64,000 nucleotides of DNA from an uncultured Roseobacter sp. Its GTDB lineage: Bacteria > Pseudomonadota > Alphaproteobacteria > Rhodobacterales > Rhodobacteraceae. A program made the position numbers and the translations under genes. Location of the stretch: NCBI RefSeq assembly GCF_947496515.1, contig NZ_CANMDB010000002.1, forward strand, positions 372,001 to 436,000, read 5' to 3'. The notes below the pieces were generated by a model. It was given only the letters and a program-made list of their open reading frames with translations. It ran no database searches and had not been told where the DNA came from. Shown here in pieces: positions 4,163-25,537 of the stretch (the stretch's first letter is position 1; every line of letters starts with the position of its first letter).

Positions 4163-4597
4163 TCAGCGGATCAGGGCGCGGTTGCCGGACAGGGTGACGG
4201 TGACCGGATTGGGTGCATCGGGTGTCAGTCCGCGGGTCGCACGGAACGTGCCGGTAATGTCGCGAAAGGCGGCGATCACACCAATGGCGGCCGGGGGTTG
4301 CGCAAAGCTCCGGGCGTCGGTCAGCGCCGTGTTCGGGGTCACCAGAAAGCTTTGGGTGGAGATCAGATCTGCGCCTAGCGTTGCCTCTGGCGTGCCGAAG
4401 AGCGCAAAGAAATCTGCCGTGCGAAAGGCGTTCGCATCGGTCAGGTACATCACCTTGACCTCAACCGGCGCGCCCCCGTTCATGTCCGCGGCACCGTTGA
4501 TCGTCAGCGCCACGTCGGTGGATGCGGGGCCGCGGGCGGCGCAGCCCGAAAGGGTCAGCGCAAGAGAGGAGAAAAGCAGGCGTCGGCGGGTGATCAT
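4163..4597 (-). CDS. tssJ: T6SS outer-membrane lipoprotein TssJ
   Basis: TssJ is the outer-membrane lipoprotein of the T6SS envelope complex and binds the periplasmic end of TssM. The 144-residue product begins MITRRRLLFSSLALTLSGCA, a lipoprotein signal peptide with lipobox LSGC and the lipidated Cys at residue 19. The rest fits the TssJ beta-sandwich: VALTINGAADMNGGAPVEVK, then VMYLTDANAFRTADFFALF, characteristic of the family. It lies between the FHA gene and tssK in the same transcription unit. Confidence 0.93.
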   Translation of the reverse strand: MITRRRLLFSSLALTLSGCAARGPASTDVALTINGAADMNGGAPVEVKVMYLTDANAFRTADFFALFGTPEATLGADLISTQSFLVTPNTALTDARSFAQPPAAIGVIAAFRDITGTFRATRGLTPDAPNPVTVTLSGNRALIR

Positions 4598-4609: not shown

Positions 4610-5809
4610 TCAGAGTTTGGAAATTTGCTGTTCGTAGGCACTGGCGAAGGCGCGGAGGAAACTGCCCTGAAAATCCTCTTCAGCTTCGCGGGCAATCCGG
4701 GCGTAGCGGGCCTCGTAGGCATCCCACGCGCGGGCCTTGTGACGCGAGGAAAGGCGGGCCAGCGGGCCTGTCGCGTGTGTGTCGGATTGCAGCGCGTCGG
4801 GGCTCAGTTGGGTCAGCAGATCCTTGATCGCGGCCTGAAGGCCGGTCATGGTCGCAATCTCATGGGCCTTGATGTCGCGCAGAACCTCGGCGGTCGCAGC
4901 CTCGGGGTCCTGATAGCCGGGCCGTGCCGGACCGATCATCGCCTCGATGGCCTGCTCTGCGCTGACGGAGAACTTCAGCGGATTGTTGGCCTCTGCCGCG
5001 ATCATCGTGCGCGCCACCCGCATCTCGCTCTTGAGCGCGGTGCGGGTCATCATGACGTCGCGCAGACCGCTGATCATCGCGGCCATGACGCGGCCCACGC
5101 GGCCCATGACCTCCGGTGCCTGATCTTCGGGGATGTGCAGGTCTGCCATCCCGAGCCCGGTTGCAAAGGCCTCAAGCGCGTCCCCCGGTGTCGCAGACCT
5201 TACGGGTGCGGCCGGCGTTCTTGAAGGCGCGGATATCTCTGCATCCCAGTCGTCGGGGATCACCGGTGCCTGTACCTTCGGTGCCGCGAAATGATCCTGC
5301 ATAGCCGGTGAGTGATCTGCCGCGCTGCCGCCGGTATGAGGGTGTGATGAAGGCGCGGCAGCGAAGGGGTCCGCCTCCGCATCTCCGCCGCGGAGCAGGT
5401 CATCGAGAAAGGCGTTGTCGTCCTCCACCGTATCGCACGCCGACATGACCGGCGGCATTGCGGATGGCGCGGCGTCTTTGTTCAGCGCCTCCATCGCGCC
5501 GATTTCCACCACCAACTCGTAAGTGCCGACGAGGATGACATCGCCGGTTTTCAGCACTGTGGCGGTGTCGCCGATCCGCTCCGGCTGGTAGTTGAGAAAC
5601 GTACCGTTGATGGAGGTATCGCGGAGCACATAACCCTCGCCCTGTCGCTCCAGCAGGCAATGGCGCTTGGACAGGACACGGTCCGGGTCTGGCAGGGTGA
5701 GATCGTTGTCGGCCTCCCGCCCCACGCGGAGCGCGTTGCCGGTCATCGTCACCTCGATCGGCGCGGCGTGGTCCTGGTCGGTATCATGAGCGGTGAGGGT
5801 CAGCGACAT
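4610..5809 (-). CDS. tagH: T6SS-associated FHA-domain protein (TagH/Fha type)
   Basis: An N-terminal forkhead-associated domain (about residues 15-100; GNALRVGREADNDLTL, SKRHCLLER and INGTFLN carry the phosphothreonine-binding RxGR, S/RH and NGT motifs) is joined to a long acidic linker and a helical C-terminal T6SS domain (about 230-399, LGMADLHIPEDQAPEVMGRV onward). FHA proteins of this type are phosphorylation-dependent T6SS activators; the Ser/Thr kinase at 22310-23647 is the obvious partner. I chose ATG 5809 (MSLTLTAHD), 5 bases after the PAAR stop, over an earlier in-frame start at 5842 that lies inside the PAAR gene. The product is about 399 residues. No PppA-like phosphatase is in the window. 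Confidence 0.9.
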   Translation of the reverse strand: MSLTLTAHDTDQDHAAPIEVTMTGNALRVGREADNDLTLPDPDRVLSKRHCLLERQGEGYVLRDTSINGTFLNYQPERIGDTATVLKTGDVILVGTYELVVEIGAMEALNKDAAPSAMPPVMSACDTVEDDNAFLDDLLRGGDAEADPFAAAPSSHPHTGGSAADHSPAMQDHFAAPKVQAPVIPDDWDAEISAPSRTPAAPVRSATPGDALEAFATGLGMADLHIPEDQAPEVMGRVGRVMAAMISGLRDVMMTRTALKSEMRVARTMIAAEANNPLKFSVSAEQAIEAMIGPARPGYQDPEAATAEVLRDIKAHEIATMTGLQAAIKDLLTQLSPDALQSDTHATGPLARLSSRHKARAWDAYEARYARIAREAEEDFQGSFLRAFASAYEQQISKL

Positions 5810-5814
5810 GACCT

Positions 5815-6105
5815 TTAGCCCCCGATCAGCACGGTGGCGCATCCCATCACGATGGCACCGCCGTGCGCGCAGCTGTCGCCGAGACGTGCCTGAGGCAGCT
5901 TGCCGGTCAGCACGGTGGCCGAGCCCATCGCCACAACATCGGGTGGCCCCACACAGACCGCCATGGATGTCGCTGTAGCTGCTGGCATGCCGCCGATCAG
6001 CACGGTGGGCACCGGCGTCAGAAGCGGACCACCCACATGCGGAACGATGCCGCTGATCATCGGGCAGACGTGCATGTCACCTGTGCGGGCGGCGGGCATG
6101 GTCAT
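5815..6105 (-). CDS. T6SS PAAR-domain spike tip protein
   Basis: A 96-residue single-domain PAAR protein that caps the VgrG trimer. The two PAAR repeats and the metal ligands are visible: DMHVCP, PHVGGP, CVGPPD and CAHGG. There is no effector extension. It is the first gene of the unit running through tagH, tssJ, tssK, tssL and tssM, and a conserved promoter-like element ends 46 bases upstream of its start. It is clearly related to the second PAAR protein at 57679-57978 in the eCIS cluster, with shared PHVGGP, CVGPPD and AHGG blocks. Confidence 0.95.
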   Translation of the reverse strand: MTMPAARTGDMHVCPMISGIVPHVGGPLLTPVPTVLIGGMPAATATSMAVCVGPPDVVAMGSATVLTGKLPQARLGDSCAHGGAIVMGCATVLIGG

Positions 6106-6736: not shown

Positions 6737-8767
6737 TCAATTGATCATGGTCAAGCTGCCCTTGACCGTCAGGATGCCAGAGGATTTGAGCTGGGTCATG
6801 CCGCCACCTTCGAGGCTGAGCATGCCGCTGCCCTTCAGGCTCGCCTGCCCCTTGCCTTCCAACGCCAGTTGCCCGCCCGCCGCGACCTTGGCGGTGGCCT
6901 GAGCATTGACGTCGATCTTGGGGGCGGAGATCGTCACGCCGCCCGGCGTCAGCTCGATCTCGGAAGCGCCGCATTTCAGCGTGATATTGGACTTTGCCGT
7001 CAGCGTCAGCGCACCATCCACGGTCGTGGTATGATCCTTGGCGATATGCCGGGTCTCCCCCCCTTTGGCAACGATAAAGCTGTGATCGCCCTCGCGGATG
7101 GTCTCGGTCTTGTCGCCGTGGATCGTCTGGGTGAGCCCGCCGGGGCTCTTGTGCTCCAGACCCACTTCGATCTCGGCACTGTTCTTGATGATCTGCTTGA
7201 AGTCGCGCTCGGACTGCAGGCGCACGAATTCGGCGTCTTTCTTGTCTTCGAAGATCAGTTCGCTGCAGCCGTTCCCGCCCTTGGCGCTATTGGTGCGCAC
7301 CCCCGTTTGCGTGCCATCACCCGGCAGCGACGTGGGAGGCTTGGCATCGCCGTTATAGACCATCCCGGTGATGATCGGGCGGTCGGGGTCGCCCTGCTCG
7401 AACTGGACGACGACCTCCTGCCCGATCCGTGGCACGGCGACCATGCCCCAGCCCTTGCCGCTCCATGGCACGGCGGAGCGGATCCAGCAGGAGGATGTCT
7501 CGTCGCGTTTGCCGTCCCGGTCCCAGTGGAACTGTACCTTCACGCGGCCCATGCTGTCGGTCCAGACCTCTTCGCCCGCCTTGCCGACGACGACCGCTGT
7601 CTGCACGCCCGGGTTCTCCGGGCGCGGTGTATGGTGCGGGCTGCGATAAGGGTCGCGCGCGGGCTGCACCTCGATCTCGCAGCGGTAAAGATCGGGGTTC
7701 GTGGTATGATCGAAATCGAGCACGGGTCCCAGGATCGCCTGCACGATGTCGCGATCCTCCATCATCACATCGAGCTGGATCTGGTGCCGGGCACGCAACA
7801 CCAGATAATCGGCGTTCTCCGCCTTGCGGGGATGCTTTTTGAGCTGGAAGCGCGCACCAACGGCCATCTGCCGGACATTGCCCACGGCCCGTGCGCGGTG
7901 GGTCTGGGCGGCGTAGGCTTCGGCGCGGATCTGCGCGTGATGCTCCCCCGCACCGCTGGTGGTGTGGCGGCCCGAGGCGTCGTAGACCTCATAGCTGACG
8001 TGCGCGCCGCGACCCTTGGGCAGCGCTTTGCTGCATGTCAGATCGGTCTTGGGGGCCTCGAAATCATGCCCCTGAAGGGTCACCTTGCCGGGGCGAATAC
8101 GCTCCGAGCCGCGCCATTCGTAGATATGATCTTCGTCACGAAACATATCCGCCGCGCGCATGTAATAATTGAGCGTGGGATGATCCTGCGTCGGTAAATG
8201 GCAACTGGCGTCATCGACCAGCACCAGCGTCTCGCGCGCCTTGTCATAGGTATGGAAGTAGTAGATCCCTTCCTCTTCCATCAGTCTGGAAATAAAGGCA
8301 AAATCACTCTCCCGGTACTGCACGCAATAGCTTCGTTTGACAAAGCTGTGCTTGGTCTTGTCCTTGAAGTCGGAAAACCCGTGGGCACCAAAGACCTCGC
8401 GCAGGATCTCCATCACTGTCTTGTCCTGAAAAATCCGACAGTTCGTCGTCTGGGTGAGAAACCATAACCAGCTGCGCAGCTCAGCCCGAAAGTATCCCTG
8501 ACTGCCCGAGGCGCCGAGGAATTCAGCGGACACGCAGCGGCCCTGAAAATGGCGTAGCTTGTCCCGGGGTGCGTCGAGGTCTATGCCCAGACGCTCACCC
8601 ACCAGCTTTTGCAGGTCGAGGTCGAGGTCGGTGGACATGAATTCCACCGTCATGCGCGGGATCTCGGCCAGCGCCTCGTCGATCTGCGCGCGCACCAGAT
8701 AGCCCTTGATCCCATTGGGCAGTTTGAGCCGCGCGGGCCGGTTTTCCAGCAGGATATCCTTGGACAT
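6737..8767 (-). CDS. vgrG: T6SS spike protein VgrG (TssI)
   Basis: VgrG forms the trimeric puncturing spike on top of the Hcp tube. The 676-residue protein has the gp27-like first half (SWLWFLTQTTNCRIFQDKTV and QYRESDFAFISRLMEEEGIY are family hallmarks), the gp5 OB-fold (GRVKVQFHWDRDGKRDETSS, SCWIRSAVPWSGKGWG, RIGQEVVVQFEQGDPDRPII, ITGMVYN), and a C-terminal beta-helix with DUF2345-like repeats ending TVKGSLTMIN. There is no C-terminal effector extension, so it is a structural rather than 'evolved' VgrG. It follows the TssB-TssC fusion gene by 44 bases and is followed by the DUF6931-like gene. Confidence 0.97.
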   Translation of the reverse strand: MSKDILLENRPARLKLPNGIKGYLVRAQIDEALAEIPRMTVEFMSTDLDLDLQKLVGERLGIDLDAPRDKLRHFQGRCVSAEFLGASGSQGYFRAELRSWLWFLTQTTNCRIFQDKTVMEILREVFGAHGFSDFKDKTKHSFVKRSYCVQYRESDFAFISRLMEEEGIYYFHTYDKARETLVLVDDASCHLPTQDHPTLNYYMRAADMFRDEDHIYEWRGSERIRPGKVTLQGHDFEAPKTDLTCSKALPKGRGAHVSYEVYDASGRHTTSGAGEHHAQIRAEAYAAQTHRARAVGNVRQMAVGARFQLKKHPRKAENADYLVLRARHQIQLDVMMEDRDIVQAILGPVLDFDHTTNPDLYRCEIEVQPARDPYRSPHHTPRPENPGVQTAVVVGKAGEEVWTDSMGRVKVQFHWDRDGKRDETSSCWIRSAVPWSGKGWGMVAVPRIGQEVVVQFEQGDPDRPIITGMVYNGDAKPPTSLPGDGTQTGVRTNSAKGGNGCSELIFEDKKDAEFVRLQSERDFKQIIKNSAEIEVGLEHKSPGGLTQTIHGDKTETIREGDHSFIVAKGGETRHIAKDHTTTVDGALTLTAKSNITLKCGASEIELTPGGVTISAPKIDVNAQATAKVAAGGQLALEGKGQASLKGSGMLSLEGGGMTQLKSSGILTVKGSLTMIN

Positions 8768-8811: not shown

Positions 8812-11628
8812 TCACAGATCCGCCAGCAGAGCGGCGAGGTCGGCATCAATCTCGGCGTCATCGTTGCTGCCGGCGTCCTCGTCTCCGCCCAGATCCGCGA
8901 GCAACGCGTCAAGATCATCGTCGTCGCCAGAGGCGGGCGGCGCATCGTCGCCGGTATCGTCATCGCCCAGATCAAAGGCGCTCAGGTCCATGTCATCGTC
9001 GTTGAGCCCCAGATCATCGTCGTCTTCCTCCGCGTCGGCGCTGGCGAACTGTTCATCATAGTCATCGCCCGCACCGCCGGGGCGGGAGGGTCCGAAGTCG
9101 TCGCCCGCATCGGGCGCATCGCCTGCTTCTCGCGTGATATCGAGCGTCGCGCCCGCCCCGCCAAGCCCGGTACCACCGCCCGCACTTTGACCCCAGGGGC
9201 CAGCCAGCATCCCCGCGCCCAGACCCTGAAAGGAGCCCTGGCGCACTTCGTTGCGACCCTTGATCGAGACCAGCGGGATGTAGCCGCGGGCCACCACCTG
9301 CGCCATCGTCGTGGTATTGAGCAACCGCGTCGTTACCGGCAGGGCGACCTGATCGCCATGTGGGTCCGTTATGACATGCATCGGCATATCGCCAAGGCTC
9401 ATCACGTCGCCCAGCTTCATGGTCTTGCCCTTCTGGTTGACCGTCTCGCACATCAGGACCGCCGAGAGCACGACCGGATTGGCCCAGAGCATGCCCTTGA
9501 GCCCTTCGCGCAGGGTAAATTCCTCGAAATCGAATGCATCGACCGGTTCGGTGCGCGCACCGTACGGCAGGCGCAGCAGAAAACCGGGAGCCGCCAGTGC
9601 TGCGTATTGCGCCTGCGGCAGTTCGCGCAGCGCGTCCCAGGATTTCGCGACCAACGGGTGGCGTTCGTGCTTGGGTGTGGCGAGGAAGCTGTCGGAGATC
9701 GCCGCGAGGAATGGCGCGTTCATCCACGCGCTGACCTTGGCCATGCGCGCCATGAGATCCGCGTGCGGCGGCGTTTCTTCCAGCGTGTAGAGCCCGAAGA
9801 CCGCCGAGAGCGCCCCCTGCCCTTCATCCAGCCGTGGTTCCTCGGCCAGCATCTGGAAAAGTCCGGTTTGTGACAAGTCTTCGTCACTGGCCAGATCCGC
9901 GGCCCATTCCTCAGCCGAGACGTCATAGAGCACGATGTCCACGGCTGGCCCGGTGCGGATCCGCCGGGCGAGAAGCTCCAGTGAGCGCCAGGTTGCCTCC
10001 ACCGCCTGGAAATCAGGGTGGTGCAGGATGGCGCGCATGGTGCCGGAGATGGCGGCATCAACCGCCGCCAGCATCGCAGGTTGGTCCGGATCGGTAGCGG
10101 CCTGAACGTGAGGCCCGACAATGCGACCGATCAAATCCTCGGCGGGTGATGGCGTGCGCAAGCGCGCGGTTGTGTCGCCGATGAGGGTCTGGAAGGTGCT
10201 GAGTTTCAGGCCAGCAGGCACAGCCGCACCCTTGGCCCGGCTGCGCACGGCGGGTTTGAGATCCCCGAAGAGGCTGGCCCATTCGTGCATTTGCGCTGCG
10301 TCCTTCGGGCTGAGCCCGCGTGCGATACGGCTGCGCAAAGCCTTGAGCTCGTCAAACACGGCGACGTTTTCGTAAAGCTCATCGGGACGCAGATCGTCCA
10401 GGCTGGACAGCGGGACTTCGATCCCGGCGCCATCGGTACCCAGAGGCAGGATCAGCGTGGTAGCGAACCGCGCGATCACATCGTCGAGCGTGTCCACATC
10501 AAGGCGCATGGGCTTGCGGGCGGCCAGATCGGCACCGATTTGCAGCGTCCCCGTGGCAGCCCGGCCTGTGAAGTCACCCAGAACGGCGATCCGGAAACGC
10601 GGGCGCGGAGCCTCGCGGTCGTCGGGCTCGGGCAGATCGAGCCGACCGTGCGGGGAGGGTTCCGGCGTCTCATCGTCCTCCGGCTCGGCTTTGTCGGTGT
10701 CCTCCGCGGGCACGAAATCGGTGTCGACCGTATCTTCTTCGTCGGGATCCGCCTGCCGTATGTCGTCGTCAATCAGGCCCGTCGGGTCAGCATCCGCTGC
10801 GTCGTCTTGCGCTGGCTCCAACGGATCCGCTGCGAGATCGAGGTCTTCGTCCTCCTTGACCAAATCCGGATCGACCGTTTCGCTTTCCGCCGTGATTTGC
10901 ACCTCGTCTGCCCTGCCTTCTGCGGCGGTCAGGGTTGCGTCGATGGCGGTCGCCGTCGCTTCTTCTGGCCCACGGGTCTTGGGCGCCCCGTGCGCGTCGG
11001 TATCTGTCGCGTCGTCACCAGGGGTTGCCTCGCGGGCCGTTGTCGCAATCTCCGCGAGGATAGCGTCGGTAGGGTCCACATCCTCGGCGGCAGGGGCAAC
11101 AGCGCGAAGGGCCTCCAGCGTTGCCTCGACCTCGCTCGGCGCATCGGCGGGTCCGGCGAGTGTCGCCATGGCGCCGGGATCCGCAAGCAGCCCGGCGATC
11201 AGGGCCTCCGCACCCGGTTTACCGTCCATGTAGGTGCGCAGGTGCTCCAGCCGGGTGCGGGCGTCGAGAAGCTGTGCCAGCGGGGCCAGCGCGCGCGCGA
11301 CAGCCGTCGGAGAGAAATCCTCCATCCGCTCGAAGGTCATATCGACGGCAAGGCTGCCCTCGCCCGTCAGCGTGTTGGGGACAGTGAACGCCGCCCGTGG
11401 TTTGATCGCGCGCATCCGGTCGTCGAAGTTATCCACGTCGATGTCAAGGAAGGGGCGCTCAGCCACGGGCCGTGGCGCGACGTCGGATCTGCCAGAGAGA
11501 TCCGCCATAACCCCCATCACGAACGGCAGCTGAATCGTTTTTGCGGCACCGTAGAGCTCCACGTCATATTCGATCTGAACGCGGGGCGCGCGGTTCCGGG
11601 CGACGAATTTCTGGCTGCTTTGGGACAT
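8812..11628 (-). CDS. Fusion protein: TssB-like + acidic linker + second TssB-like + TssC-like sheath domains, acidic tail
   Basis: The 938-residue protein combines both contractile-sheath subunits. Residues 1-160 are a TssB domain almost the same as the separate TssB at 20717-21223 (RNRAPRVQIEYDVELYG, VMGVMADLSG, FLDIDVDNFDDRMRAIKPR). Residues about 185-342 are a disordered Asp/Glu-rich linker. Residues about 343-455 look like a second, diverged TssB unit (FRIAVLGDFTGRA, MRLDVDTLDDVIARFATTL). Residues about 490-815 are TssC-like (ILHHPDFQAVEATWRSLELL, FLLRLPYG, GMLWANPVVLSAVLMCETV, GYIPLVSIKGRNEVRQGSFQ). Residues 831-938 form a strongly acidic tail. Extra TssC paralogues are known in alphaproteobacterial T6SS; a TssB-TssC fusion is not something I know. 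It is the first gene of a unit with vgrG, under promoter element P2. Possible roles are a sheath cap, initiator or baseplate-sheath adaptor. Confidence 0.85.
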   Translation of the reverse strand: MSQSSQKFVARNRAPRVQIEYDVELYGAAKTIQLPFVMGVMADLSGRSDVAPRPVAERPFLDIDVDNFDDRMRAIKPRAAFTVPNTLTGEGSLAVDMTFERMEDFSPTAVARALAPLAQLLDARTRLEHLRTYMDGKPGAEALIAGLLADPGAMATLAGPADAPSEVEATLEALRAVAPAAEDVDPTDAILAEIATTAREATPGDDATDTDAHGAPKTRGPEEATATAIDATLTAAEGRADEVQITAESETVDPDLVKEDEDLDLAADPLEPAQDDAADADPTGLIDDDIRQADPDEEDTVDTDFVPAEDTDKAEPEDDETPEPSPHGRLDLPEPDDREAPRPRFRIAVLGDFTGRAATGTLQIGADLAARKPMRLDVDTLDDVIARFATTLILPLGTDGAGIEVPLSSLDDLRPDELYENVAVFDELKALRSRIARGLSPKDAAQMHEWASLFGDLKPAVRSRAKGAAVPAGLKLSTFQTLIGDTTARLRTPSPAEDLIGRIVGPHVQAATDPDQPAMLAAVDAAISGTMRAILHHPDFQAVEATWRSLELLARRIRTGPAVDIVLYDVSAEEWAADLASDEDLSQTGLFQMLAEEPRLDEGQGALSAVFGLYTLEETPPHADLMARMAKVSAWMNAPFLAAISDSFLATPKHERHPLVAKSWDALRELPQAQYAALAAPGFLLRLPYGARTEPVDAFDFEEFTLREGLKGMLWANPVVLSAVLMCETVNQKGKTMKLGDVMSLGDMPMHVITDPHGDQVALPVTTRLLNTTTMAQVVARGYIPLVSIKGRNEVRQGSFQGLGAGMLAGPWGQSAGGGTGLGGAGATLDITREAGDAPDAGDDFGPSRPGGAGDDYDEQFASADAEEDDDDLGLNDDDMDLSAFDLGDDDTGDDAPPASGDDDDLDALLADLGGDEDAGSNDDAEIDADLAALLADL

Positions 11629-11706: not shown

Positions 11707-14358
11707 CTACTGTGCGGCGAGGGTGTCTGCCTCTTCGTCAAGGGCGTAGGTAAACGTACCCTCGGTCACGTCGATGGCCATCCGCGTGACGGACCGATCC
11801 TCCAGCCGCCGTGTCAGTACCTTGCCCGACAGCGCGGGCAGCAGGGTATTGGTGACGATGGCGTCAATCATCCGGCCGCCGCTTTCCACCTCGCGACAGC
11901 GCGCGACGATGGCCTCGACCACGGCATCGGTATAGGTGAACGGGACGTCATAGGCGGTGCGGACCCGTGTACCGATACGGTCGAGGTGCAGGCGGGTGAT
12001 CCGGGCGATCATCTCCGCGGACAGCGGGTAGTAGGGCACCGGCACCATCCGGCCTAGCAGTGCCGGCGGAAAAACCTCAAGCAGCGGGGCGCGCAGGGCT
12101 TTCGTCACCCCGTCAGGCTCGGGCATCAGCGCGGGATCCGCGCAAAGGTCCATGATCACCTCCGAGCCCACGTTGGAGGTCATCAGGATCAGCGTGTTGC
12201 GAAAATCAATCTGTCGGCCCTCCCCGTCTTCCATGACACCTTTGTCGAAGACCTGAAAAAAGACCTCATGCACATCCGGGTGTGCCTTTTCCACCTCGTC
12301 CAGCAACACGACGGAGTAAGGCCTGCGCCGCACCGCTTCAGTAAGCACGCCGCCCTGACCGTAGCCCACGTATCCCGGCGGTGCGCCCTTCAGGCTGCTG
12401 ACGGTATGGGCCTCCTGATATTCGCTCATGTTGATGGTGATGAGGTTCTGCGCTCCGCCATAGAGCGTTTTGGCGATGGCCAGCGCGGTTTCGGTCTTGC
12501 CCACGCCGGAGCTGCCCGCGAGCAGGAAGACCCCGATGGGTTTGTCCGGGTTGTCGAGCCCCGCCCGGGCGGAGATGACACGCTTTGCGATCATCTCCAT
12601 CGCGTGGTCCTGCCCGATGACATGGGTCGAGAGGTGATCCGCAAGGTCCAGCACGGTGCGCATCTCGTCGCGGACCATCCGCCCCACGGGGATGCCCGTC
12701 CAGTCCGCGACCACCTGGCCAACGGCCGTGGCGTCCACGAGCGGCAGGATCATGGGCGTCTCACCCTGAAGCGTCGCAAGCTCCTCTTGCAACCTGCGCA
12801 GTTGGGCGAGGGTCTCCTCGCCCTGTTCGGCCTGTCGCCGGGCGCGCAGATCCGTGATCCGGGTGACAAGCGACTTTTCGGCTTCCCATTTTGCGGTGAG
12901 CGTGCGTTCGCGGTCTGTCTCGACGGCGAGTGCGGCCTCTGCGGTCTCGCGCCGCGCCTGCGTGTTAGCGCCAGCGGCGGCATCTCGGGCAATGATCTCC
13001 AGCTCCGTGCTCAGCGCGGCGATACTGCGCGCGCAATCCTCCAGCGGGGCGGGCGTGGCGTGCAGGCTTAGGCCCACGCGCGCACAGGCGGTATCGAGCA
13101 CGCTGACGGATTTGTCGGGTAATTGCCGTGCGGGAATGTACCGCGCGGAGAGCCGTACGCTCGCCTCCAGTGCTTCATCAAGGATCTGGACCTTGTGGTG
13201 CTTCTCCAGTGTCGCCGTCATGCCGCGCATCATCATCACCGCGGTCTCCGTGTCCGGCTCGGCGATCTGCACCACCTGAAACCGGCGGGTCAGCGCGGGA
13301 TCCTTTTCGATATGCTTTTTGTACTCTGCCCATGTGGTGGCCCCGATGGTGCGCAGCGTGCCGCGGGCCAGGGCTGGTTTCAGCAGGTTGGCCGCGTCTC
13401 CGGTTCCCTCGGCGCCCCCCGCACCGACGAGCGTATGGGTCTCGTCAATAAAGAGGAGGACGGGAACCGCGCTGGCCGCGACCGCATCGATGACACTGCG
13501 CAGCCGGGTCTCGAACTCACCCTTCATGCCCGCACCCGCCTGCAGCAACCCGATGTCGAGCGCCATGAGCCGCGCCCGCGCCAGCGCGGGCGGCACTTCC
13601 CCCTCTGCGATGCGCAGCGCCAGCCCTTCGACCACGGCGGTTTTACCGACGCCTGCCTCGCCCGTGAGGATCGGATTATTCTGGCGGCGGCGGCTCAGCA
13701 CGTCGATCATCTGGCGGATCTCGGTATCCCGGCCCATGATGGGGTCGATCTCGCCTGCGCGGGCGCGGGCGGTCAGATCTGTGCAGAAGCGATCAAGCGC
13801 GCCGTCCGAGGTTGGTGTGAGTGTGGCAGGCGGCTTGCCCGGGTCCGTGGCAAATGATCCGTCCTGCGGCGGCAGGCCCGCCTCGGGTGAGCCTGCCACG
13901 GCGTCGGCAAAGTCGCGGGAGAGCGCGCTGGCGTCGAGCCCGGCGAGGTCGGCAGAGATGCCGCGCAGAACATTGTGCAGCCCGCGGGCGCTGAGCAGCC
14001 CAAGCAGCAGATGCCCGGTGCCGATCTGCGCCCTACCCGCGCCCAGCGAGGCCTGCACCCAGGCGCGTTCCACCGCTTCTTCGAGATGCGGTGAGAGATC
14101 GGAGATCGCTGTGGCTCCGCGCGGCAGCGCATCGAGAGCACGCTGGATCTGCGTCTCCACGTGCCCCGCATCCAGCTCGTAAAAGCGCAGGATCCGGTGC
14201 AGATCGCTGTCCTTTTCCTGAAGGATCTGGTGCAGCACATGCGCAAGCTCCACATAGGGATTGCCGCGCATCTTGCAAAAAACGGTTGCGTTCTCAACGT
14301 GCTGAAAGGCCTGGGTGTTGAGCTTGCCGAAAAGGGCGATGCGGCTGATCTGGGTCAT
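11707..14358 (-). CDS. tssH: T6SS sheath-recycling ATPase TssH (ClpV)
   Basis: ClpV is the AAA+ unfoldase that disassembles contracted TssB/TssC sheaths. The 883-residue protein has the Clp N-domain (about 1-150), a first AAA+ module with Walker A GEAGVGKT and Walker B LLFIDETHTL, a middle coiled-coil region (about 430-560), and a second AAA+ module with Walker A GSSGVGKTETALA and Walker B SVVLLDEVEKAH; the pore loop GYVGYGQGG is present. The sequence KGEFETRLRSVIDAV is typical of ClpB/ClpV. It is the last gene of the tssB-tssC-hcp-tagJ-tssE-tssF-tssG-tssH unit, 24 bases after tssG. Confidence 0.97.
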   Translation of the reverse strand: MTQISRIALFGKLNTQAFQHVENATVFCKMRGNPYVELAHVLHQILQEKDSDLHRILRFYELDAGHVETQIQRALDALPRGATAISDLSPHLEEAVERAWVQASLGAGRAQIGTGHLLLGLLSARGLHNVLRGISADLAGLDASALSRDFADAVAGSPEAGLPPQDGSFATDPGKPPATLTPTSDGALDRFCTDLTARARAGEIDPIMGRDTEIRQMIDVLSRRRQNNPILTGEAGVGKTAVVEGLALRIAEGEVPPALARARLMALDIGLLQAGAGMKGEFETRLRSVIDAVAASAVPVLLFIDETHTLVGAGGAEGTGDAANLLKPALARGTLRTIGATTWAEYKKHIEKDPALTRRFQVVQIAEPDTETAVMMMRGMTATLEKHHKVQILDEALEASVRLSARYIPARQLPDKSVSVLDTACARVGLSLHATPAPLEDCARSIAALSTELEIIARDAAAGANTQARRETAEAALAVETDRERTLTAKWEAEKSLVTRITDLRARRQAEQGEETLAQLRRLQEELATLQGETPMILPLVDATAVGQVVADWTGIPVGRMVRDEMRTVLDLADHLSTHVIGQDHAMEMIAKRVISARAGLDNPDKPIGVFLLAGSSGVGKTETALAIAKTLYGGAQNLITINMSEYQEAHTVSSLKGAPPGYVGYGQGGVLTEAVRRRPYSVVLLDEVEKAHPDVHEVFFQVFDKGVMEDGEGRQIDFRNTLILMTSNVGSEVIMDLCADPALMPEPDGVTKALRAPLLEVFPPALLGRMVPVPYYPLSAEMIARITRLHLDRIGTRVRTAYDVPFTYTDAVVEAIVARCREVESGGRMIDAIVTNTLLPALSGKVLTRRLEDRSVTRMAIDVTEGTFTYALDEEADTLAAQ

Positions 14359-19219: not shown

Positions 19220-20713
19220 TTACTCGGTCTCGGACGGCAGTCGGGACACGAGGCGCAGCGAAACGGACAACCCTTCGAGCTGGTAGTGCGGGCGCAGATA
19301 GAATTTGCTGTCGTAGTAGCCCGGGTTGCCCTCCACCTCTTCGACGACCACCTCGGCCGCGGCCAGCGGTTTGCGGGACTTCACCTCTTCGGTGGAGGTT
19401 TCGGCGTTGTAATCCACGTAGCGGCTGATCCAGTTCTGCAGCCACTGCTCCATGTCGCCGCGGCTGGTAAAGGAGCCTACTTTGTCGCGCACGATGCATT
19501 TGAGGTAATGAGCGAACCGGCAGGTGGCGAAGAGATAGGGCAGGCGCGCTGCCAGATTGGCGTTGGCCGTGGCACTAGGATCGTCATACTGCGTGGGTTT
19601 TTGCAGCGACTGCGCGCCGATGAAGGCCGCCGTGTCGGTGTTCTTGCGGTGGATGAGCGGCATCAGCCCGTTGGTGCCCAGCTCCGCCTCTCGCCGGTCG
19701 GAAATGGCGATCTCGGTGGGGCATTTCATGTCCACGCCGCCGTCGTCGGAGGGGAAGGTATGTGTCGGCAGACCGTCCACCGTGCCACCGGATTCGACGC
19801 CGCGGATCCGCGAACACCAGCCGTATTCCTTGAAGGAGCGGTTGATATTGCGCGCCATGGCGTAGGATGCGTTGACCCAGCAGTACTTCTCTGCGCCCGC
19901 ACCGGTGGTGTCTTCTTCAAAAGCGAACTCCTCCACCGGGTCGGTCTTGGCGCCGTAGGGGTGACGGCCCAGAAACCGCGGCATGGCGAGACCCAGATAG
20001 CGGGCGTCCTCGCTGTCGCGCAGGGACCGCCAGGCGGCGTATTCCGGGGTCTGGAAGATCTTGGTCAGATCCCGCGGGTTGGCCAGCTCGTCCCAGCCTT
20101 CCATCTGCAAAAGCGCAGGGTCCGCCCCCGCCAGAAACGGCGCATGTGCCGCGGCGGCGATCTTGGACATCTCGCCCAGCATCTCCACATCCCTTGGGCT
20201 GTGATCGAAATGATAGTCCCCCACCAGACAAGCATAGGGCTCACCGCCGAACTGGCCGTACTCTTCTTCGTAGATCTTCTTGAAGATCGGCGACTGGTCC
20301 CAGGCGGTGCCCTTGTACTTGCGCAGGGTCTTGGACAGATCCTTTTTCGACAGATCCATGAAGCGGATCTTGAGCATCTCGTCGGTCTCGGTGTTGTTCA
20401 CCAGAAAATGCAGACCGCGCCAGGCGCTTTCCAGCTTCTGGTACTCCGCGTGGTGCAGGATTTCGTTGATCTGCTCCGTCAGCTTGGCATCGATCTCGGC
20501 GACCAGACCGTCGATGCAGCGCAGCGCGTCGTCGGACACCAGATCCTCGTGCGCCAGCACCTGCTCGGCCAGCGTCTTGACGGCCTCCTCCACGGCAAGC
20601 CGTGCTGTCTCGGACTTTGGGCGAAATTCCTTTTGCAAAAGATCCGCAAACTCGGACGAGGCAAAGATCGTCTCGGCCGGCGCTGCGGCGGGGGTCTGGA
20701 TTGCTTGCGTCAT
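19220..20713 (-). CDS. tssC: T6SS sheath large subunit TssC (VipB)
   Basis: TssC forms the contractile sheath with TssB. The 497-residue protein has normal length and motifs: INEILHHAEYQKLESAWRGL, HFLVNNTETDEMLKIRFMDL, YACLVGDYHFDHSPRDVEML, MPRFLGRHPYG, and the conserved C-terminal LMPLIHRKNTDTAAFIGAQS with SLQKPTQYDD, then GSFTSRGDMEQWLQNWISRY. It starts 3 bases after tssB. It differs from the TssC-like part of the fusion protein at 8812-11628, which lacks the FIGAQSLQKP block. Confidence 0.97.
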   Translation of the reverse strand: MTQAIQTPAAAPAETIFASSEFADLLQKEFRPKSETARLAVEEAVKTLAEQVLAHEDLVSDDALRCIDGLVAEIDAKLTEQINEILHHAEYQKLESAWRGLHFLVNNTETDEMLKIRFMDLSKKDLSKTLRKYKGTAWDQSPIFKKIYEEEYGQFGGEPYACLVGDYHFDHSPRDVEMLGEMSKIAAAAHAPFLAGADPALLQMEGWDELANPRDLTKIFQTPEYAAWRSLRDSEDARYLGLAMPRFLGRHPYGAKTDPVEEFAFEEDTTGAGAEKYCWVNASYAMARNINRSFKEYGWCSRIRGVESGGTVDGLPTHTFPSDDGGVDMKCPTEIAISDRREAELGTNGLMPLIHRKNTDTAAFIGAQSLQKPTQYDDPSATANANLAARLPYLFATCRFAHYLKCIVRDKVGSFTSRGDMEQWLQNWISRYVDYNAETSTEEVKSRKPLAAAEVVVEEVEGNPGYYDSKFYLRPHYQLEGLSVSLRLVSRLPSETE

Positions 20714-20716
20714 GGC

Positions 20717-21223
20717 CTAGTCCTCATCTGCGGCAGTCTCGGCGGGTGCCGATGCCAGTGTCTTCAAGAGGTCGGGGTCGTTGATGATCTTGGCCATCAG
20801 GTCCTCCGCACCGGTCTTTCCGTCCATGTAAGTGCCCAGGTTCGACAATTGGGTTCGCGCCTGAAGCAGTTTTTTCAGGGGTGCGACCTTCTCGGCGATG
20901 GCGGCGGGGGCGAAATCCTCCATCCGTTCAAAATGGATATCGACGGCGATGTTACCCTCGCCCGTCAGCGTGTTGGGCACCGTAAAGGCCGCGCGCGGTT
21001 TGACCGCGCGCATGCGGTCGTCAAAGTTGTCCACGTCGATTTCCAGAAACTTGCGGTCGGCGACGCTGGGCAGGGGTTCTTCGGATTTGCCTGACAGATC
21101 CGCCATGACACCCATGACGAAAGGCAGCTGAATGGCTTTTTCCGCGCCATAAAGTTCAACATCGTATTCGATCTGAACCCGAGGCGCGCGGTTGCGGGCG
21201 ATGAATTTCTGGCTGCTGGCCAT
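20717..21223 (-). CDS. tssB: T6SS sheath small subunit TssB (VipA)
   Basis: TssB pairs with TssC in the sheath and carries the ClpV-binding helix. The 168-residue form from ATG 21223 (MASSQKFIARNRAPRVQIEY) has VMGVMADLSGKS, FLEIDVDNFDDRMRAVKPR, FTVPNTLTGEGNIAVDIHFE and YMDGKTGAEDLMAKII. A GTG two codons earlier is a possible alternative start. It is the first gene of the largest T6SS unit, under element P3, which lies inside the end of tssA. Its first 130 residues are nearly the same as residues 1-130 of the fusion protein at 8812-11628, pointing to a fairly recent duplication. Confidence 0.97.
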   Translation of the reverse strand: MASSQKFIARNRAPRVQIEYDVELYGAEKAIQLPFVMGVMADLSGKSEEPLPSVADRKFLEIDVDNFDDRMRAVKPRAAFTVPNTLTGEGNIAVDIHFERMEDFAPAAIAEKVAPLKKLLQARTQLSNLGTYMDGKTGAEDLMAKIINDPDLLKTLASAPAETAADED

Positions 21224-21276
21224 GTGCACTTCCTTTCGTGATGCGACTGGAACCGCCCGGGAAAGGGCTTGTCTGG

Positions 21277-22317
21277 TCAGTAAGTGCCCTCGTCCCCCTC
21301 AGAAGGTTCAAATCCGCCGATCAAGGCGATGTTGCTGACACCTTCTGGGGCCATGTCTTTCATGATCGTCACGAAATCAGCGGAGACGAGGCGCTTGGCC
21401 CGGGTCAGCAGAATGGGCAGCGGGCTAGAGGGCTCGTAGCGCGCGTAATAGGCCATGATCCGGTCCAATGCGGCGGTGACATCCTGCGGCGTGGTGATGG
21501 TATCGCCCGTGGTGCGCGGGGGCGGCGGTGCGATGTCCGCCTGAGGTGATGGGCTATCTGCGCTGTCGCGCGCGGGTTCGCCGTCTGTGAAGGCACCGAG
21601 CCTGCGGCAGATGTCTCTCAGCATGTCCCGTAGGGGGTCAAGGTCTGGGCCCGCAGTGCCTACATGGGCGTCGAAAAGGGTGCAGATGGTGTCAACCGAG
21701 GCGAGAGTCTCTTCCGCCGCGGTCAGGGTTTCCTGAGCGGCATCGCCGCCCGCTTCCGCAAAGGTGGCTGCGACCGTTTGGGGATCTGGGGTCTTGCCGT
21801 AGCTTGCGGGCGCGCTGGCATCGCCGCTGGCGATCTCCAGATCCCGCAAGCACAGGCTGCCAAAGCTGCGGCTTTCCACCAAAGGGGCGTGCCGCAGCGA
21901 TTGCAGCACACCCTCGCGGCTGGCCAGCGCCAGCACCGCATTGACGCGCATGGTCAGGTCGCCGTCATCCGCGTCGGGCCGCGGGTGCACCGCGTCCCAA
22001 TGCGCCTCCAGACAACCCGCCGTATAGGCCAGCGCCAGCCGAAACCCGTCCAGCGCGCGAATGCGCAGCAGCGCATTTGCGAGGATTGCCGCGATGCGCA
22101 GATCCTGCGTGCGCGTCAGCAGCGTTGCGGCCTGGTCCGCCACGGCGGTGTAGTCGGGATCTTCCGCCGGGATCACGCTATCGCCGATCACCCGCTCTTC
22201 GGTGGGCTTGCTGGCAAGCTCCAGCGCGATGAAGTCGGGGTCATATTCCAGATCTTCGCCGCCCGGCGCATCGTCCGAGATGGGCTGTAGCAGCGTGTCG
22301 AGGTCGAGATCAGGCAT
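21277..22317 (-). CDS. tssA: T6SS cap/assembly protein TssA (ImpA family)
   Basis: TssA primes and caps sheath-tube polymerisation. The 346-residue protein has the ImpA N-terminal domain at its start (LLQPISDDAPGGEDLEYDPD, QDLRIAAILANALLRIRALD, YTAGCLEAHWDAVHP), a middle helical part, and a short C-terminal helical region (PQDVTAALDRIMAYYARYEP, SSPLPILLTRAKRLVSADFV) typical of the shorter TssA class. Its start overlaps the kinase stop by 8 bases. Its last codons double as promoter element P3 for tssB. Confidence 0.94.
   Translation of the reverse strand: MPDLDLDTLLQPISDDAPGGEDLEYDPDFIALELASKPTEERVIGDSVIPAEDPDYTAVADQAATLLTRTQDLRIAAILANALLRIRALDGFRLALAYTAGCLEAHWDAVHPRPDADDGDLTMRVNAVLALASREGVLQSLRHAPLVESRSFGSLCLRDLEIASGDASAPASYGKTPDPQTVAATFAEAGGDAAQETLTAAEETLASVDTICTLFDAHVGTAGPDLDPLRDMLRDICRRLGAFTDGEPARDSADSPSPQADIAPPPPRTTGDTITTPQDVTAALDRIMAYYARYEPSSPLPILLTRAKRLVSADFVTIMKDMAPEGVSNIALIGGFEPSEGDEGTY
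21280..21310 (-). promoter_or_regulatory. ECF-type promoter P3 (tssB-tssC-hcp-tagJ-tssEFGH unit), inside tssA
   Basis: Minus strand TGAACC (21310-21305), 18-base spacer, CACTTAC (21286-21280). The whole element sits in the last codons of tssA: the -10 part encodes the terminal Gly-Thr-Tyr, directly before the TGA stop. It ends 57 bases before the tssB start. The spacer is one base longer than in the other copies. Confidence 0.7.
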
Positions 22318-23647
22318 GACGGTTTCCTTCTGCGGTTTGGCTTTGAACAGTGTCCAGAAACGCTGCGCGGGCCCGGTCGTCGGCGACTTCGGCGGCGATG
22401 GTGTCGAGCAGATGCGCGAGACTGGTGGAGTGCTTGGATTGCCGCCGCACGAGGGTTCCCGCGATGGGCCCCAGATGGGGGGTCAGCGCGGCGATCACCG
22501 CACCCAGATCCGCGTCCGAAAGGCCCTCCGTCGCGCGCCCCGGATCCGTGCTGAGCAGCCCCGAGATCCGGCAGCGCAGGATTTCCCGCTGGTCCGGATC
22601 GGTGATTTCACCCATAAGCTGGCTCAGCAGGTCCTCCTGGGTGAGGGCGGTTTCCGCCGCCCGCCGGGTGATCAGCTTGCCAATGGGCCCAATCTGACGG
22701 ATCACGCTGTCTTCGAGATCGCGCAGGGTCCGCAGTGACAGCCTGGCGATCATGGTCCGGGCCGAGGGTGGCTGATCGGAGGGCCGCGCTTTTGTCCGTG
22801 CAGCGCCAGCAGTGCCAATCGCTGCGATCAGGGCGGCCTTCATCTCTTCGGCGCTCTGAAACCGCTCTGCGGGCTCCGGGCGGATGGCGCGCATCACCAC
22901 AGCGTCAAGCGCTGCAGGCAGTGCGGGCACGCACGCCGAGGGCGGCGGAACGCTCTGACCCTTGGCTGCCAGCATCACTGCCGCGACACCGCCGCCGCGG
23001 TAGGGCTGCTGGCCTGTCAGAACCTCGTAGAGGATGACACCGGCCGCATAGAGATCGGTCCGACTATCGACCGTGTCGCCGGAAAACTGCTCGGGCGCCA
23101 TATAGGCAGGCGTGCCGATCATGCCCGCGCCCGTATGTTCCATCCGGGTGAAGCGCGCGATGCCGAAATCGGTGAGTTTGACGGTACCGCTTGGTGTCAG
23201 CATGATGTTGGCGGGCTTCATGTCGCGGTGCACGATGCCTGCTGTGTGAATGGCGGCCAGCCCGTCGAGCATCTGTGCGGTGATCCCGGCCACTTCGTCC
23301 AGCGTCAGCGTCTGCGCGCCGAGGCGGGCGTCCAGCGTTTCGGCCTGCAAACGCTCCATCACCAGATAGGGGCGGCCCTCCTCTTCGAGGTAGTCGAAGA
23401 TCGTGACCAGATTGGGATGGATCACCCGGCCCGCGGCCCGCGCCTCCCGTGCGAACCGGGCCAGCCAGTCGGCCCCCTCCGCGGTGTCGATGAGGTGCCG
23501 GTGGATGGTCTTGATGGCCACGGTGCGGTCGATGTCGCGGTCGTGCGCCTCGAACACCACGCCCATGGCGCCCTCGCCCAGTCGGTCGCCCAGCAGGTAC
23601 TTCCCGATCCGCAGGCGCATCGGTGCAATGATGGTGCGGTCAGTCAT
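22310..23647 (-). CDS. Serine/threonine protein kinase (PpkA-type) linked to T6SS
   Basis: A eukaryotic-like Ser/Thr kinase, likely phosphorylating the FHA protein TagH or another T6SS part. The catalytic domain occupies residues 15-280: glycine loop GEGAMG (24-29), VAIK lysine 46, HRDMKPANIM (Asp142), DFG (160-162) and APE (184-186), so all catalytic residues are present. No membrane segment follows. Instead there are two related helical repeats (about 311-355 and 384-430) sharing GPI-x3-L-x2-R, LL and E-x2-D-x3-R. The gene overlaps the upstream membrane sensor and the downstream tssA by 8 bases each, so sensor, kinase and TssA are co-translated. This replaces the periplasmic domain that PpkA kinases normally carry themselves. 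Confidence 0.95.
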   Translation of the reverse strand: MTDRTIIAPMRLRIGKYLLGDRLGEGAMGVVFEAHDRDIDRTVAIKTIHRHLIDTAEGADWLARFAREARAAGRVIHPNLVTIFDYLEEEGRPYLVMERLQAETLDARLGAQTLTLDEVAGITAQMLDGLAAIHTAGIVHRDMKPANIMLTPSGTVKLTDFGIARFTRMEHTGAGMIGTPAYMAPEQFSGDTVDSRTDLYAAGVILYEVLTGQQPYRGGGVAAVMLAAKGQSVPPPSACVPALPAALDAVVMRAIRPEPAERFQSAEEMKAALIAAIGTAGAARTKARPSDQPPSARTMIARLSLRTLRDLEDSVIRQIGPIGKLITRRAAETALTQEDLLSQLMGEITDPDQREILRCRISGLLSTDPGRATEGLSDADLGAVIAALTPHLGPIAGTLVRRQSKHSTSLAHLLDTIAAEVADDRARAAFLDTVQSQTAEGNRHA

Positions 23648-24512
23648 CGAGCATCGCCATCGCGCGGTCGAGGCTGCGGCGCATCCGGTTGAACGAGGTG
23701 GCGAGCGAGCCGATCTCGTCGCGTGTGTCCCGGGTGTATTCCGGGACAGAGAAATCCCCCAGGCTGACCTTTTCGGCCATGGATGTCAGGTAGGAGACGG
23801 GGCGGATCACCACGCGGGTCAACAGGATGTTGGTGACGATCAGCACCAGCGTGAACGCCGCGGCAAGGGCGATTGCGACCATTGCGGCGGTTTCCTTGGC
23901 CCTTTCGATCACCAGTGGCAACGGCACGGTCACGATCTGCGCGCCCACCGTCTCACCCATCTCCCAGCCGTAGCCATTGGCGGACCCGTAGAGGTCCACC
24001 ATCGCGGGCGGGGCGGCGTCGACGCTGCCGTGGCAGCTCAGACATCCGGGATTTGTGATCGTGACCGGCGCGCCCATCATCAACAGCGGGCCAGCGTCGG
24101 TGTCGATGCGTCTGGACAGCTGCGCAAGCTCCGGGTCCGCGCGGAACTGCGCGATCATCTCCGCTTCCTCGGCGGTGGGCAGATCTGCAGGGTTCAGCGG
24201 GTTCAGCGCGGCTTCCTTATAGCTGTACTGCGGGAACTCCGCTGTCATCGTCTCGAACACCCGGCGGGCGGCAAAGGAGGTAACGGCCTCGGGCTGAAAG
24301 AGGATATCGCCCTCGTCCGACAGCAGGGGAGCGATATGCTCCAGCGTATAGCTGCGCACGGCGGTGGCATTGGCGCGCATCAGCTGCGCCTCGCGCTCGA
24401 CATCGCGCAGCGCGCTTTCCTTGACCAGACTATAGCTGATGCCGACCGCCGCGGCAGCGCCCAGGGCACTCGCCGTGATCAGAACCAGATTGTACTTGAA
24501 CCGCAGGCCCAT
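23640..24512 (-). CDS. Membrane sensor with DUF3365 (c-type haem, CxxCH) and HAMP domains
   Basis: A 290-residue two-pass sensor: membrane segment about 9-29, periplasmic DUF3365/Tll0287-like domain about 35-205, second membrane segment about 208-233, and a cytoplasmic HAMP domain about 232-284 ending in MAMLDD with no output domain. The periplasmic domain holds CLSCH (157-161), a c-type haem attachment motif. Such domains are proposed to sense redox state or small ligands. The stop overlaps the Ser/Thr kinase start by 8 bases, so I infer it passes its signal to that kinase in trans. It is the first gene of its unit, under promoter element P4. Confidence 0.88.
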   Translation of the reverse strand: MGLRFKYNLVLITASALGAAAAVGISYSLVKESALRDVEREAQLMRANATAVRSYTLEHIAPLLSDEGDILFQPEAVTSFAARRVFETMTAEFPQYSYKEAALNPLNPADLPTAEEAEMIAQFRADPELAQLSRRIDTDAGPLLMMGAPVTITNPGCLSCHGSVDAAPPAMVDLYGSANGYGWEMGETVGAQIVTVPLPLVIERAKETAAMVAIALAAAFTLVLIVTNILLTRVVIRPVSYLTSMAEKVSLGDFSVPEYTRDTRDEIGSLATSFNRMRRSLDRAMAMLDD

Positions 24513-24538
24513 GGAAGCTCACCATTGTTGTCTCTTTG

Positions 24539-24568
24539 GTGAGTGCCGCTGCGGGGCCGGAGGGTTCA
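24539..24568 (-). promoter_or_regulatory. ECF-type promoter P4 (haem sensor-kinase-tssA unit)
   Basis: Minus strand TGAACC (24568-24563), 17-base spacer, CACTCAC (24545-24539), ending 27 bases before the sensor start at 24512. The first TGA of the -35 part is the stop codon of the upstream pseudo-caspase gene. Confidence 0.7.
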
Positions 24569-25537
24569 CCCCCGGGGCAAAAGTTCCATCAACTGGCGGG
24601 GCGTAAGCAGGCCGGTTTCAGTCTCGGCGCGCGTCTGTTGAAAGCCGCGGATGGCGGCCCGCGTCTGCACACCGATGATCCCGTCGATGAGGCCTTTGTA
24701 ATGACCCTGCGCGCGCAGCGCGCGTTGCAGATCGCGCTTGACCGGCGGAGAGAGCGATTGCTCCAGCAAGGTAAGCTCTTCTTCGGTGGCCGGTTGCTCA
24801 GGATCCGGTGCGACGACCGGCAGCGGCTCCGGCGTGATCACCGACGGGGCCCTTAGCACGATAGGCCGGGCGGGCGGTGCCGACAGCGTCGCGCCCGGTA
24901 CGGCCGCCATTCGCTCCAGCAGAGTGCGCAGATCAATCCGGGCGGCCGTTTCCGCCTGTCGCGCCAATACGTCCAGTACCTGCGCCGCGCGGGGTGCCGG
25001 CACGACAAGGATCTCGCTGGCACCGGATCGTGGTGGTGGGGCCGCTTCCGCCCGTGCAATGCCCGCAGGCAAAGAGGGACCGACCTCCGCCACGGATAGC
25101 AGAACCGCCCCACCCCGCGCGCTGAGCGCTGTCATCCGGGCAAAGGCGCGCAGGGGCACGGCTTCGGTGTAGATGTCACTCGCCCGGCTGAGCGCTGTGT
25201 CTTCCGGCAGCACAAAGAGGCGGCCCTCAACCGACACCGCGGGGATATCGAGAAAGACAAGTGCTGCGTCCGCTTGCCGGGCCTCTTGTGCGAAACGGCG
25301 CATCAGCGCCCGCAGTTCGGCATTGGTAGGGGCTGTGGCCTGAAGGATCTCGGCATCGAGTGACGTCAGGCTTTGCAGCGCGCGATCGGTGCGAATGTTC
25401 TGGCGCTCGGAGGAGACGACCATACCGACGATGCGGGGGGCCTCCTGCGCAGACAGGGCGCCGGCCAGCATCGCAGCAAAAAACACCCCGGCAACGCGGG
25501 TTGCAAAGGCCATGCGATGGAACCCGAGCCGTGTCAT
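24566..25537 (-). CDS. Exported caspase-like protein without catalytic dyad, with C-terminal peptidoglycan-binding domain
   Basis: About 323 residues: signal peptide (cleavage likely after AGALSA near residue 30), a region patterned like bacterial caspase (C14) domains (about 35-165), a proline-rich linker, and a C-terminal peptidoglycan-binding type 1 domain (about 258-323; LQRALRAQGHYKGLIDGIIG, QTRAAIRGFQQ). In active bacterial caspases the strand ALVYYAGHG-xQ-x(3)-NYLIPVD supplies the His; here it reads ALVFLDIPAVSVEGRLFVLP, and the DACR that supplies the Cys reads LSVAEV. Both catalytic residues are therefore missing. ATG 25537 overlaps the subtilase stop by 4 bases (ATGA); starts at 25546 and 25513 are also possible. 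Probable periplasmic sensor or scaffold in the ECF module. Function not known. Confidence 0.7.
   Translation of the reverse strand: MTRLGFHRMAFATRVAGVFFAAMLAGALSAQEAPRIVGMVVSSERQNIRTDRALQSLTSLDAEILQATAPTNAELRALMRRFAQEARQADAALVFLDIPAVSVEGRLFVLPEDTALSRASDIYTEAVPLRAFARMTALSARGGAVLLSVAEVGPSLPAGIARAEAAPPPRSGASEILVVPAPRAAQVLDVLARQAETAARIDLRTLLERMAAVPGATLSAPPARPIVLRAPSVITPEPLPVVAPDPEQPATEEELTLLEQSLSPPVKRDLQRALRAQGHYKGLIDGIIGVQTRAAIRGFQQTRAETETGLLTPRQLMELLPRG

Follow-up and report, generated by a model that had tools for sequence, protein, structure and literature searches.

The sheath of the type VI secretion system (T6SS) is taken to be a uniform polymer of TssB (VipA) and TssC (VipB). In roseobacters, Suria et al. 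2022 (PMC9515649) described, under the name TssCL, a protein with two VipA parts and one VipB part that is encoded beside normal tssB and tssC in a group-3 T6SS cluster. Here, we analyze a gene with the same layout in a window of DNA (the whole stretch of 64,000 nucleotides; contig NZ_CANMDB010000002.1, positions 372,001 to 436,000) from an uncultured Roseobacter sp. A sequence-only reading of this window had put the fusion forward as a new observation; with TssCL already published, the fusion is not new as such. A full-text literature search for TssCL together with type VI secretion returned PMC9515649 alone. Phrase searches on TssC-like or second-TssC T6SS proteins found no paper. A phrase search for fused TssB and TssC missed PMC9515649; its match in PMC10781749 concerns a GFP tag.

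The gene is a single intact, ATG-started open reading frame (ORF), and the encoded protein contains, in this order, a TssB-like domain (B1), an acidic linker, a diverged TssB-like part (TssB') followed by a TssC-like part (TssC'), which together are referred to as the core, and an acidic tail. By comparing homologous loci, we found that the conserved unit is the core with its tail, located between clpV and vgrG, and that B1 is an optional addition. We suggest, with a probability of about 0.4, that B1 is incorporated into the sheath as one of its TssB subunits and that the core, which would not polymerize, hangs outside the sheath and docks another T6SS part. Such a tether or docking role appears to be the mechanism best supported by the observations described below.

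Domain layout of the TssCL-type protein

B1 is a complete TssB domain. Like canonical TssB, it passes the TssB equivalog model TIGR03358 (184.9 bits, cut-off 97.25; best stretch at residues 6-158), and its identity to the TssB of the cluster is 69.0% over 168 residues, in line with the sequence-only reading, which had called residues 1-160 a near-copy of the separate TssB; different from canonical TssB, it continues into the linker and the core. TssB', which the same reading had recognized as a diverged TssB repeat at residues 343-455, is truncated and shares 25.4% identity with the cluster's own TssB over 118 residues, and the VipB part is 29% identical to the cluster's own TssC. Pfam places VipA at residues 10-158, a second, weaker VipA stretch thereafter, and finally VipB at residues 519-794, which agrees with the previous description of residues 490-815 as TssC-like. 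While canonical TssC combines PF05943 with the gp25-like domain PF18945 (VipB_2), which is also present in the neighboring TssC, PF18945 was not detected in the window protein (Pfam, E 0.1), and the protein scores below the cut-off of the TssC equivalog TIGR03355 (133.5 vs. 271.5 bits). The linker and the tail hold up as distinct acidic parts (Table 1).

Structure prediction yielded a sheath fold over TssB'-TssC', with structural matches to sheath proteins. The model resembles the single-chain sheaths of phages, and two leucine motifs in the tail are predicted to form short helices of moderate confidence. B1 is under purifying selection, and TssB'-TssC' is maintained as one selected globular chain.

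The conserved unit, its tail and the history of B1

A scan of named genomes gave at least 126 confirmed relatives, of which the best 80, i.e., the closest ones, were kept; all counts over 80 loci are based on these. B1 was detected in 50 of these loci, was cut by a contig end in 15, and was not detected in 15. The last group comprises 12 compact forms (570-676 aa) and three special cases, in which B1 is eroded (L095), a linker is present without B1 (L107), or the frame is split (L157). The flanks are kept: vgrG is the next recognized gene 3' of the core in 79/80 loci, and in 63 of the 64 loci with a recognized upstream gene, the nearest such gene is clpV. It is because B1 is missing in part of the loci and the clpV/vgrG flanks are kept that we regard the core and tail as the conserved unit; the 12 compact homologues lacking B1 show that the link to TssB is not the essential feature. 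A separate TssB is present in 26/26 searched genomes with the core, supporting the previously proposed accessory rather than replacement role, and the gene probably encodes an accessory sheath protein of the group-3 (H1-like) T6SS. Among 193 genomes, the own genome included, the core is present in the own and eight others. Fifteen clusters, including that of the window, were taken as the window's subtype; nine have the core, and in the six without it (L052-L057), clpV adjoins vgrG. The core is strongly conserved among relatives. Of 47 full-length rows prepared, 35 were used in the analysis.

That the gene is an artefact, a pseudogene or the product of a mis-joined assembly has a negligible probability. 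Frames are split in Parasedimentitalea marina and Pseudophaeobacter leonis; against this, the gene is intact in 50/80 loci and under purifying selection, and the fusion was published independently. Because these 50 loci share the same continuous order, the assembly join or frameshift considered in the sequence-only reading is ruled out, and its natural TssB-TssB'-TssC' fusion beside normal tssB and tssC stands.

In the tail, for which the sequence-only reading had put forward basic or Ca-dependent partners, conservation is strongest in the two leucine motifs, one of which is LDDLLAGF-like and lies inside the tail of relatives, while the other forms the very C-terminus (IDADLAALLADL in the window protein). 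Counted back from the C-terminus, Leu -7 and Ala -5 are present in 80/80 loci, Leu -4 in 77/80, Leu -3 in 78/80, and Asp -10 in 76/80; the final residue is Leu in 79/80. The linkers of the 50 long forms measure 226-1040 aa (median, 642), contain 21-41% Asp and Glu (D/E), and harbor 1889 LxxL motifs compared with 584 +/- 21 in residue shuffles. In the 48 linkers of at least 300 aa, the mean LxxL period is 21 aa, and a lag of 21 is best in 22/48; the long linkers are, in other words, acidic LxxL arrays with a period of ~21 aa. In one relative (L042), a 123-base unit is tandemly repeated in ~10 copies, and linker length differs among 11 Leisingera loci (692-1022). The window linker (175 aa) is an exception among relatives, in that Tandem Repeats Finder (TRF) found no tandem repeats and LxxL occurs once. 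Linker and tail could be a spacer or brush that acts by bulk charge and length to keep sheaths apart or off the membrane, with the leucines serving as weak self-association stickers. The widely varying length, also within Leisingera, at a maintained acidity would suit such a brush, which we nevertheless consider unlikely given the nearly invariant 12-residue C-terminus in the 80 loci and the strong conservation of the core.

In a tree of 27 TssB and 16 B1 sequences (one TssB, L166, was left out), window B1 and two Tateyamaria B1 cluster with TssB from these three genomes (support, 99/97), and the Neptunicoccus B1 clusters with the TssB of its own genome (95/93). The B1 of Pseudorhodobacter E13 is close to its own TssB, at a fork that is not resolved, while the remaining 11 B1 form one group (93/90). 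A single B1 clade was rejected (approximately unbiased test, p-AU 0.027). A first tree with other rows, including part of the B1 rows, again placed window B1 beside its own TssB; because window B1 is a long branch, this placement is to be read with caution. In a tree of the core, from which 17 rows of close relatives had been dropped beforehand, the window and Tateyamaria sequences stand beside compact Salipiger forms (Shimodaira-Hasegawa-like approximate likelihood ratio test, SH-aLRT, 96; quick method). These trees suggest that B1 was either fused more than once or overwritten by tssB via gene conversion.

The core also occurs outside Rhodobacterales. The betaproteobacterium Eleftheria terrae (L060) encodes a one-chain core of 592 aa without B1 and with the same kind of tail end, and cores without B1 were also found in genomes from a further class of the phylum, that of genome G518, which is probably Gammaproteobacteria. 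Of 369 genomes of this class, 15 have the core, one of them (G797) only in part, at a contig end; the profile used (A3) includes G518, G305 and Eleftheria, so their matches hold by construction. A separate TssC-type match is present in 14/15 genomes with the core, whereas 54/354 others have any match (Fisher p 2e-10, with rows sorted by hand and G837, G274 and G933, which have long matches with a stop or late start, counted as lacking the core). Two (L213 and L060) of the 16 other-class proteins read, Eleftheria included, have a leucine-motif tail. The seven of these 16 that were scanned by Pfam all match VipA (ending at profile positions 122-129) and VipB; for L075 and L225, the VipA match stayed under the gathering score. 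VipB_2 was found in none of the seven (Pfam, E 0.01). Overall, the one-chain core is rare in the phylum: in a sample of 398 genomes searched at E 1e-70, a strict limit that misses diverged members, it was present in three, the own genome included.

In the 15 loci of G518's class, the nearest recognized gene is vgrG in four, seven show no T6SS reference match other than the core within the stretch read, and two more have only a kinase or weak ClpV-like match. In L214, L074, L216 and L222, orphan one-chain TssB'-TssC' genes have unrelated neighbors and no recognized T6SS gene in the stretch read; the genomes concerned (G730, G518, G827 and G886) have a TssC-type match elsewhere. In E. terrae, R-body genes (RebB family; L060 30196-31371) lie ~13.5 kb beyond the one-chain gene.

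The proximity of vgrG, which extends from the Rhodobacterales loci to the four loci of the other class, would be expected of a VgrG-linked loading or spike-assembly factor with a sheath fold that reflects ancestry only. We regard such a factor as decidedly unlikely, because B1, for which it would have no need, stays TssB-like, and because of the other-class loci in which T6SS matches are missing or restricted to the kinase or weak ClpV-like kind. The same proximity, together with the predicted sheath fold within one chain, could point to a factor at the sheath end, in which TssB'-TssC' would be an odd protomer, either in the first ring on the baseplate or at the distal end of the sheath, with B1 placed in a nearby ring via the linker. 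The suggestion of the sequence-only reading that the fusion starts, caps or locks the sheath is of this kind. It has been weakened because the gp25-like domain is undetected in the TssB'-TssC' core of the window protein, as in 7/7 scanned relatives; moreover, linkers of 226-1040 aa among 50 relatives suit no fixed ring distance, and a role at the sheath end is therefore doubtful.

Candidate partners and a possible tether

The gp25-like domain builds the sheath mesh and, by that, only B1 could enter the mesh. TssB tolerates C-terminal additions, e.g., in TssB-sfGFP. We favor a model in which B1 pairs with canonical TssC in the growing sheath and TssB' pairs with TssC' within the same chain. The latter pair would be unable to polymerize and would hang on the acidic tether outside the sheath, where the core and the tail motifs may dock another T6SS component and tie the sheath to that part; the assembly site is the most likely place for this. 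Where a genome lacks B1, core and tail might act alike without a covalent link to the sheath.

One conceivable partner is ClpV. VipB binds ClpV via an LLDEII motif, and the TssC1 peptide of enteroaggregative Escherichia coli (EAEC) is DSVYASLFEKINL (PMC4239648, PMC5048182). The LxxLL motifs resemble these ClpV-binding TssC helices and, by mimicking the N-terminal helix of TssC, could recruit or sequester ClpV and thus control sheath recycling; the nearly constant position of clpV upstream of the core would fit. In Pseudomonas aeruginosa ClpV1, Arg6 and Asp87 were reported to block the binding groove, and no complex with the HsiC1 N-terminal peptide was obtained (PMC4239648). The window ClpV carries both residues; among 81 aligned ClpV rows, Arg6 is present in 64 (12 gaps) and Asp87 in 67 (7 gaps), and both also occur in the ClpV of all six clusters without TssCL. 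With the blocking residues present in the window ClpV, docking to the ClpV groove was demoted as the main mechanism, and a tether to ClpV seems improbable.

For the tether reading that we favor, Fha (TagH) is another candidate. The motif F/V-L-x-x-L-L is found at residues 91-300 in 82/84 Fha proteins, that of the window included (average in shuffles, 0.1), and is absent or rare in the other T6SS families compared (highest counts: TssA, 1/15; ClpV, 3/85; TssCL-type proteins, 3/91). An FLDDLL-like motif is near-universal in the variable part of the Fha of these clusters, and we know of no partner for it. Because a similar LDDLL motif occurs in the variable part of nearly every Fha compared, we put first, albeit with low confidence, the Fha/PpkA platform or a partner shared with Fha. 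In A. citrulli, Fha/PpkA condensates recruit T6SS parts (PMC12607579).

Several observations weigh against a tether docking at this site. TssCL has LDDLL where Fha has FLDDLL, with the strict Fha form being present in only 3/91 TssCL-type proteins, and the motif is so short that the likeness may be convergent. The motif is also present in the Fha of 3/4 clusters without TssCL that were examined, and the idea that Fha motif and tail form a linked pair in all lineages fails for L226, the Fha of the tail-bearing L213 cluster. As for the tether itself, B1 is absent in the compact homologues and is eroded, lost or split off in three more; 14/16 other-class homologues end soon after the core without a leucine-motif tail; and a motif array is missing from the window linker, which means that multivalency cannot be a general property. 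Finally, section 12 of PMC9515649 gives no data on biochemical function, interaction, localization or phenotype for TssCL.

In a broader scenario, which is on the whole rather unlikely, an overlooked family of one-chain, mesh-less TssB'-TssC' proteins across Pseudomonadota classes would serve as T6SS adaptors outside the sheath. The group-3 members would have gained the acidic docking tail, Rhodobacterales would have repeatedly captured the local tssB, and most linkers would have grown Fha-like acidic LxxL arrays, i.e., dozens of docking sites on one sheath subunit, by which the sheath would be retained at the Fha/PpkA assembly site. In marine strains of Leisingera or Ruegeria, the function of the gene is directly testable, since the tail peptide is conserved, B1 is optional, and otherwise similar clusters naturally have or lack the gene.

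Gene neighborhood and comparison with known systems

By family search, the window cluster contains tssB, tssC and the genes for Hcp, TagJ, TssA, TssE, TssJ, TssK, TssL and Fha; TssF and TssG were labeled from sequence and gene order. tssJ (PF12790, E 2.8e-19) lies at 4166-4597 on the minus strand, unlike in the roseobacter T6SS1 clusters studied in PMC9515649, which are reported there to lack tssJ. Upstream of tssA, genes at 22310-26691 (minus strand) encode a Ser/Thr kinase, a membrane sensor-like protein with CxxCH, a peptidoglycan-binding-like protein and a subtilase, and these are possibly a regulatory set of the T6SS. The gap between clpV and tssCL differs between lineages, with a hypothetical protein and an annotated ion transporter encoded in between in Ruegeria conchae (L059 10425-12581) and Leisingera aquaemixtae (L062 7245-9398). 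A second T6SS in the same genome (G000:C13, L049 2693-18308) encodes TssB, TssC and an adjoining TssC40-like second TssC, and its ClpV has neither Arg6 nor Asp87, with Leu at position 6.

Table 1. Features of the window, with positions counted from its first nucleotide
Feature	Position	Strand	Evidence
tssCL-type gene, 938 aa	8812..11628	minus	ORF; Pfam/NCBIfam; same order in 50/80 homologous loci
B1, complete TssB-like domain, residues 1-165	11134..11628	minus	PF05591 at 10-158; TIGR03358; identity to own TssB
Acidic linker, residues 166-340	10609..11133	minus	33% D/E; TRF 0 rows; one LxxL
TssB', diverged truncated TssB-like part, residues 343-455	10264..10602	minus	Second PF05591 stretch; predicted fold
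TssC', residues 490-815	9184..10161	minus	PF05943 at 519-794; Pfam/NCBIfam; predicted fold
Acidic tail, residues 816-938	8815..9183	minus	34% D/E; mostly low predicted local distance difference test (pLDDT) values, short helices
Internal tail motif DDLDALLADL, residues 904-913	8890..8919	minus	Conserved LDDLLAGF-like block; helix 569-576 of model (residues 904-911)
C-terminal motif IDADLAALLADL, residues 927-938	8815..8850	minus	Conserved in 80 homologous loci; helix 594-602 of model
clpV (tssH), 78 bases upstream of tssCL	11707..14358	minus	N-domain matches P. aeruginosa ClpV1 4uqw
vgrG (tssI), next gene downstream	6737..8767	minus	Pfam
Separate canonical tssB	20717..21229	minus	Pfam/NCBIfam
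Separate canonical tssC with VipB and VipB_2	19220..20713	minus	Pfam/NCBIfam
FLDDLL motif in linker of the cluster's Fha (TagH, 4610-5842)	5393..5410	minus	Motif comparison of Fha proteins

Among known sheath-related proteins, TssC40 (ImpD) of Agrobacterium is, like TssC', a diverged second TssC that does not replace TssC41, and Hcp secretion in A. tumefaciens requires TssC40 (PMC3702570). The TssC40-type protein (471 residues) encoded by the other T6SS of the genome can be aligned with TssC from residue 48 to residue 460 and has no TssB', linker or tail; we could thus rule out that the window protein is TssC40/ImpD. The single-chain sheath proteins of phages and extracellular contractile injection systems (eCIS) share 7-14% sequence identity with the protein among the matches listed; unlike in these sheaths, the gp25-like domain was undetected in the window protein, and a full TssB/TssC pair is encoded alongside.

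The closest described protein is TssCL, in which the first VipA part is close to the own TssB, the second is ~26% identical to it, and the VipB part is ~31% identical to TssC (PMC9515649), the same pattern as in the window. The window copy is shorter than the example described there (938 vs. 1,684 aa), its linker lacks a repeat array, and its B1 clusters with the TssB of its own lineage. PMC9515649 presents one architecture, found in no genome outside Alphaproteobacteria, and its section 12 does not mention linker repeats, the tail motif or one-chain relatives. Beyond this description, we find that the core and tail are the conserved unit, that the core is predicted to adopt a sheath fold in one chain, that it also occurs outside Alphaproteobacteria, that the tail ends in a conserved C-terminal motif, that linkers of relatives contain motif arrays, and that B1 has a repeated history. 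If the model is true, a TssB with a tether and a non-polymerizing sheath-like module would make some sheaths decorated and anchorable, and the wider one-chain family takes a published roseobacter curiosity to other classes.
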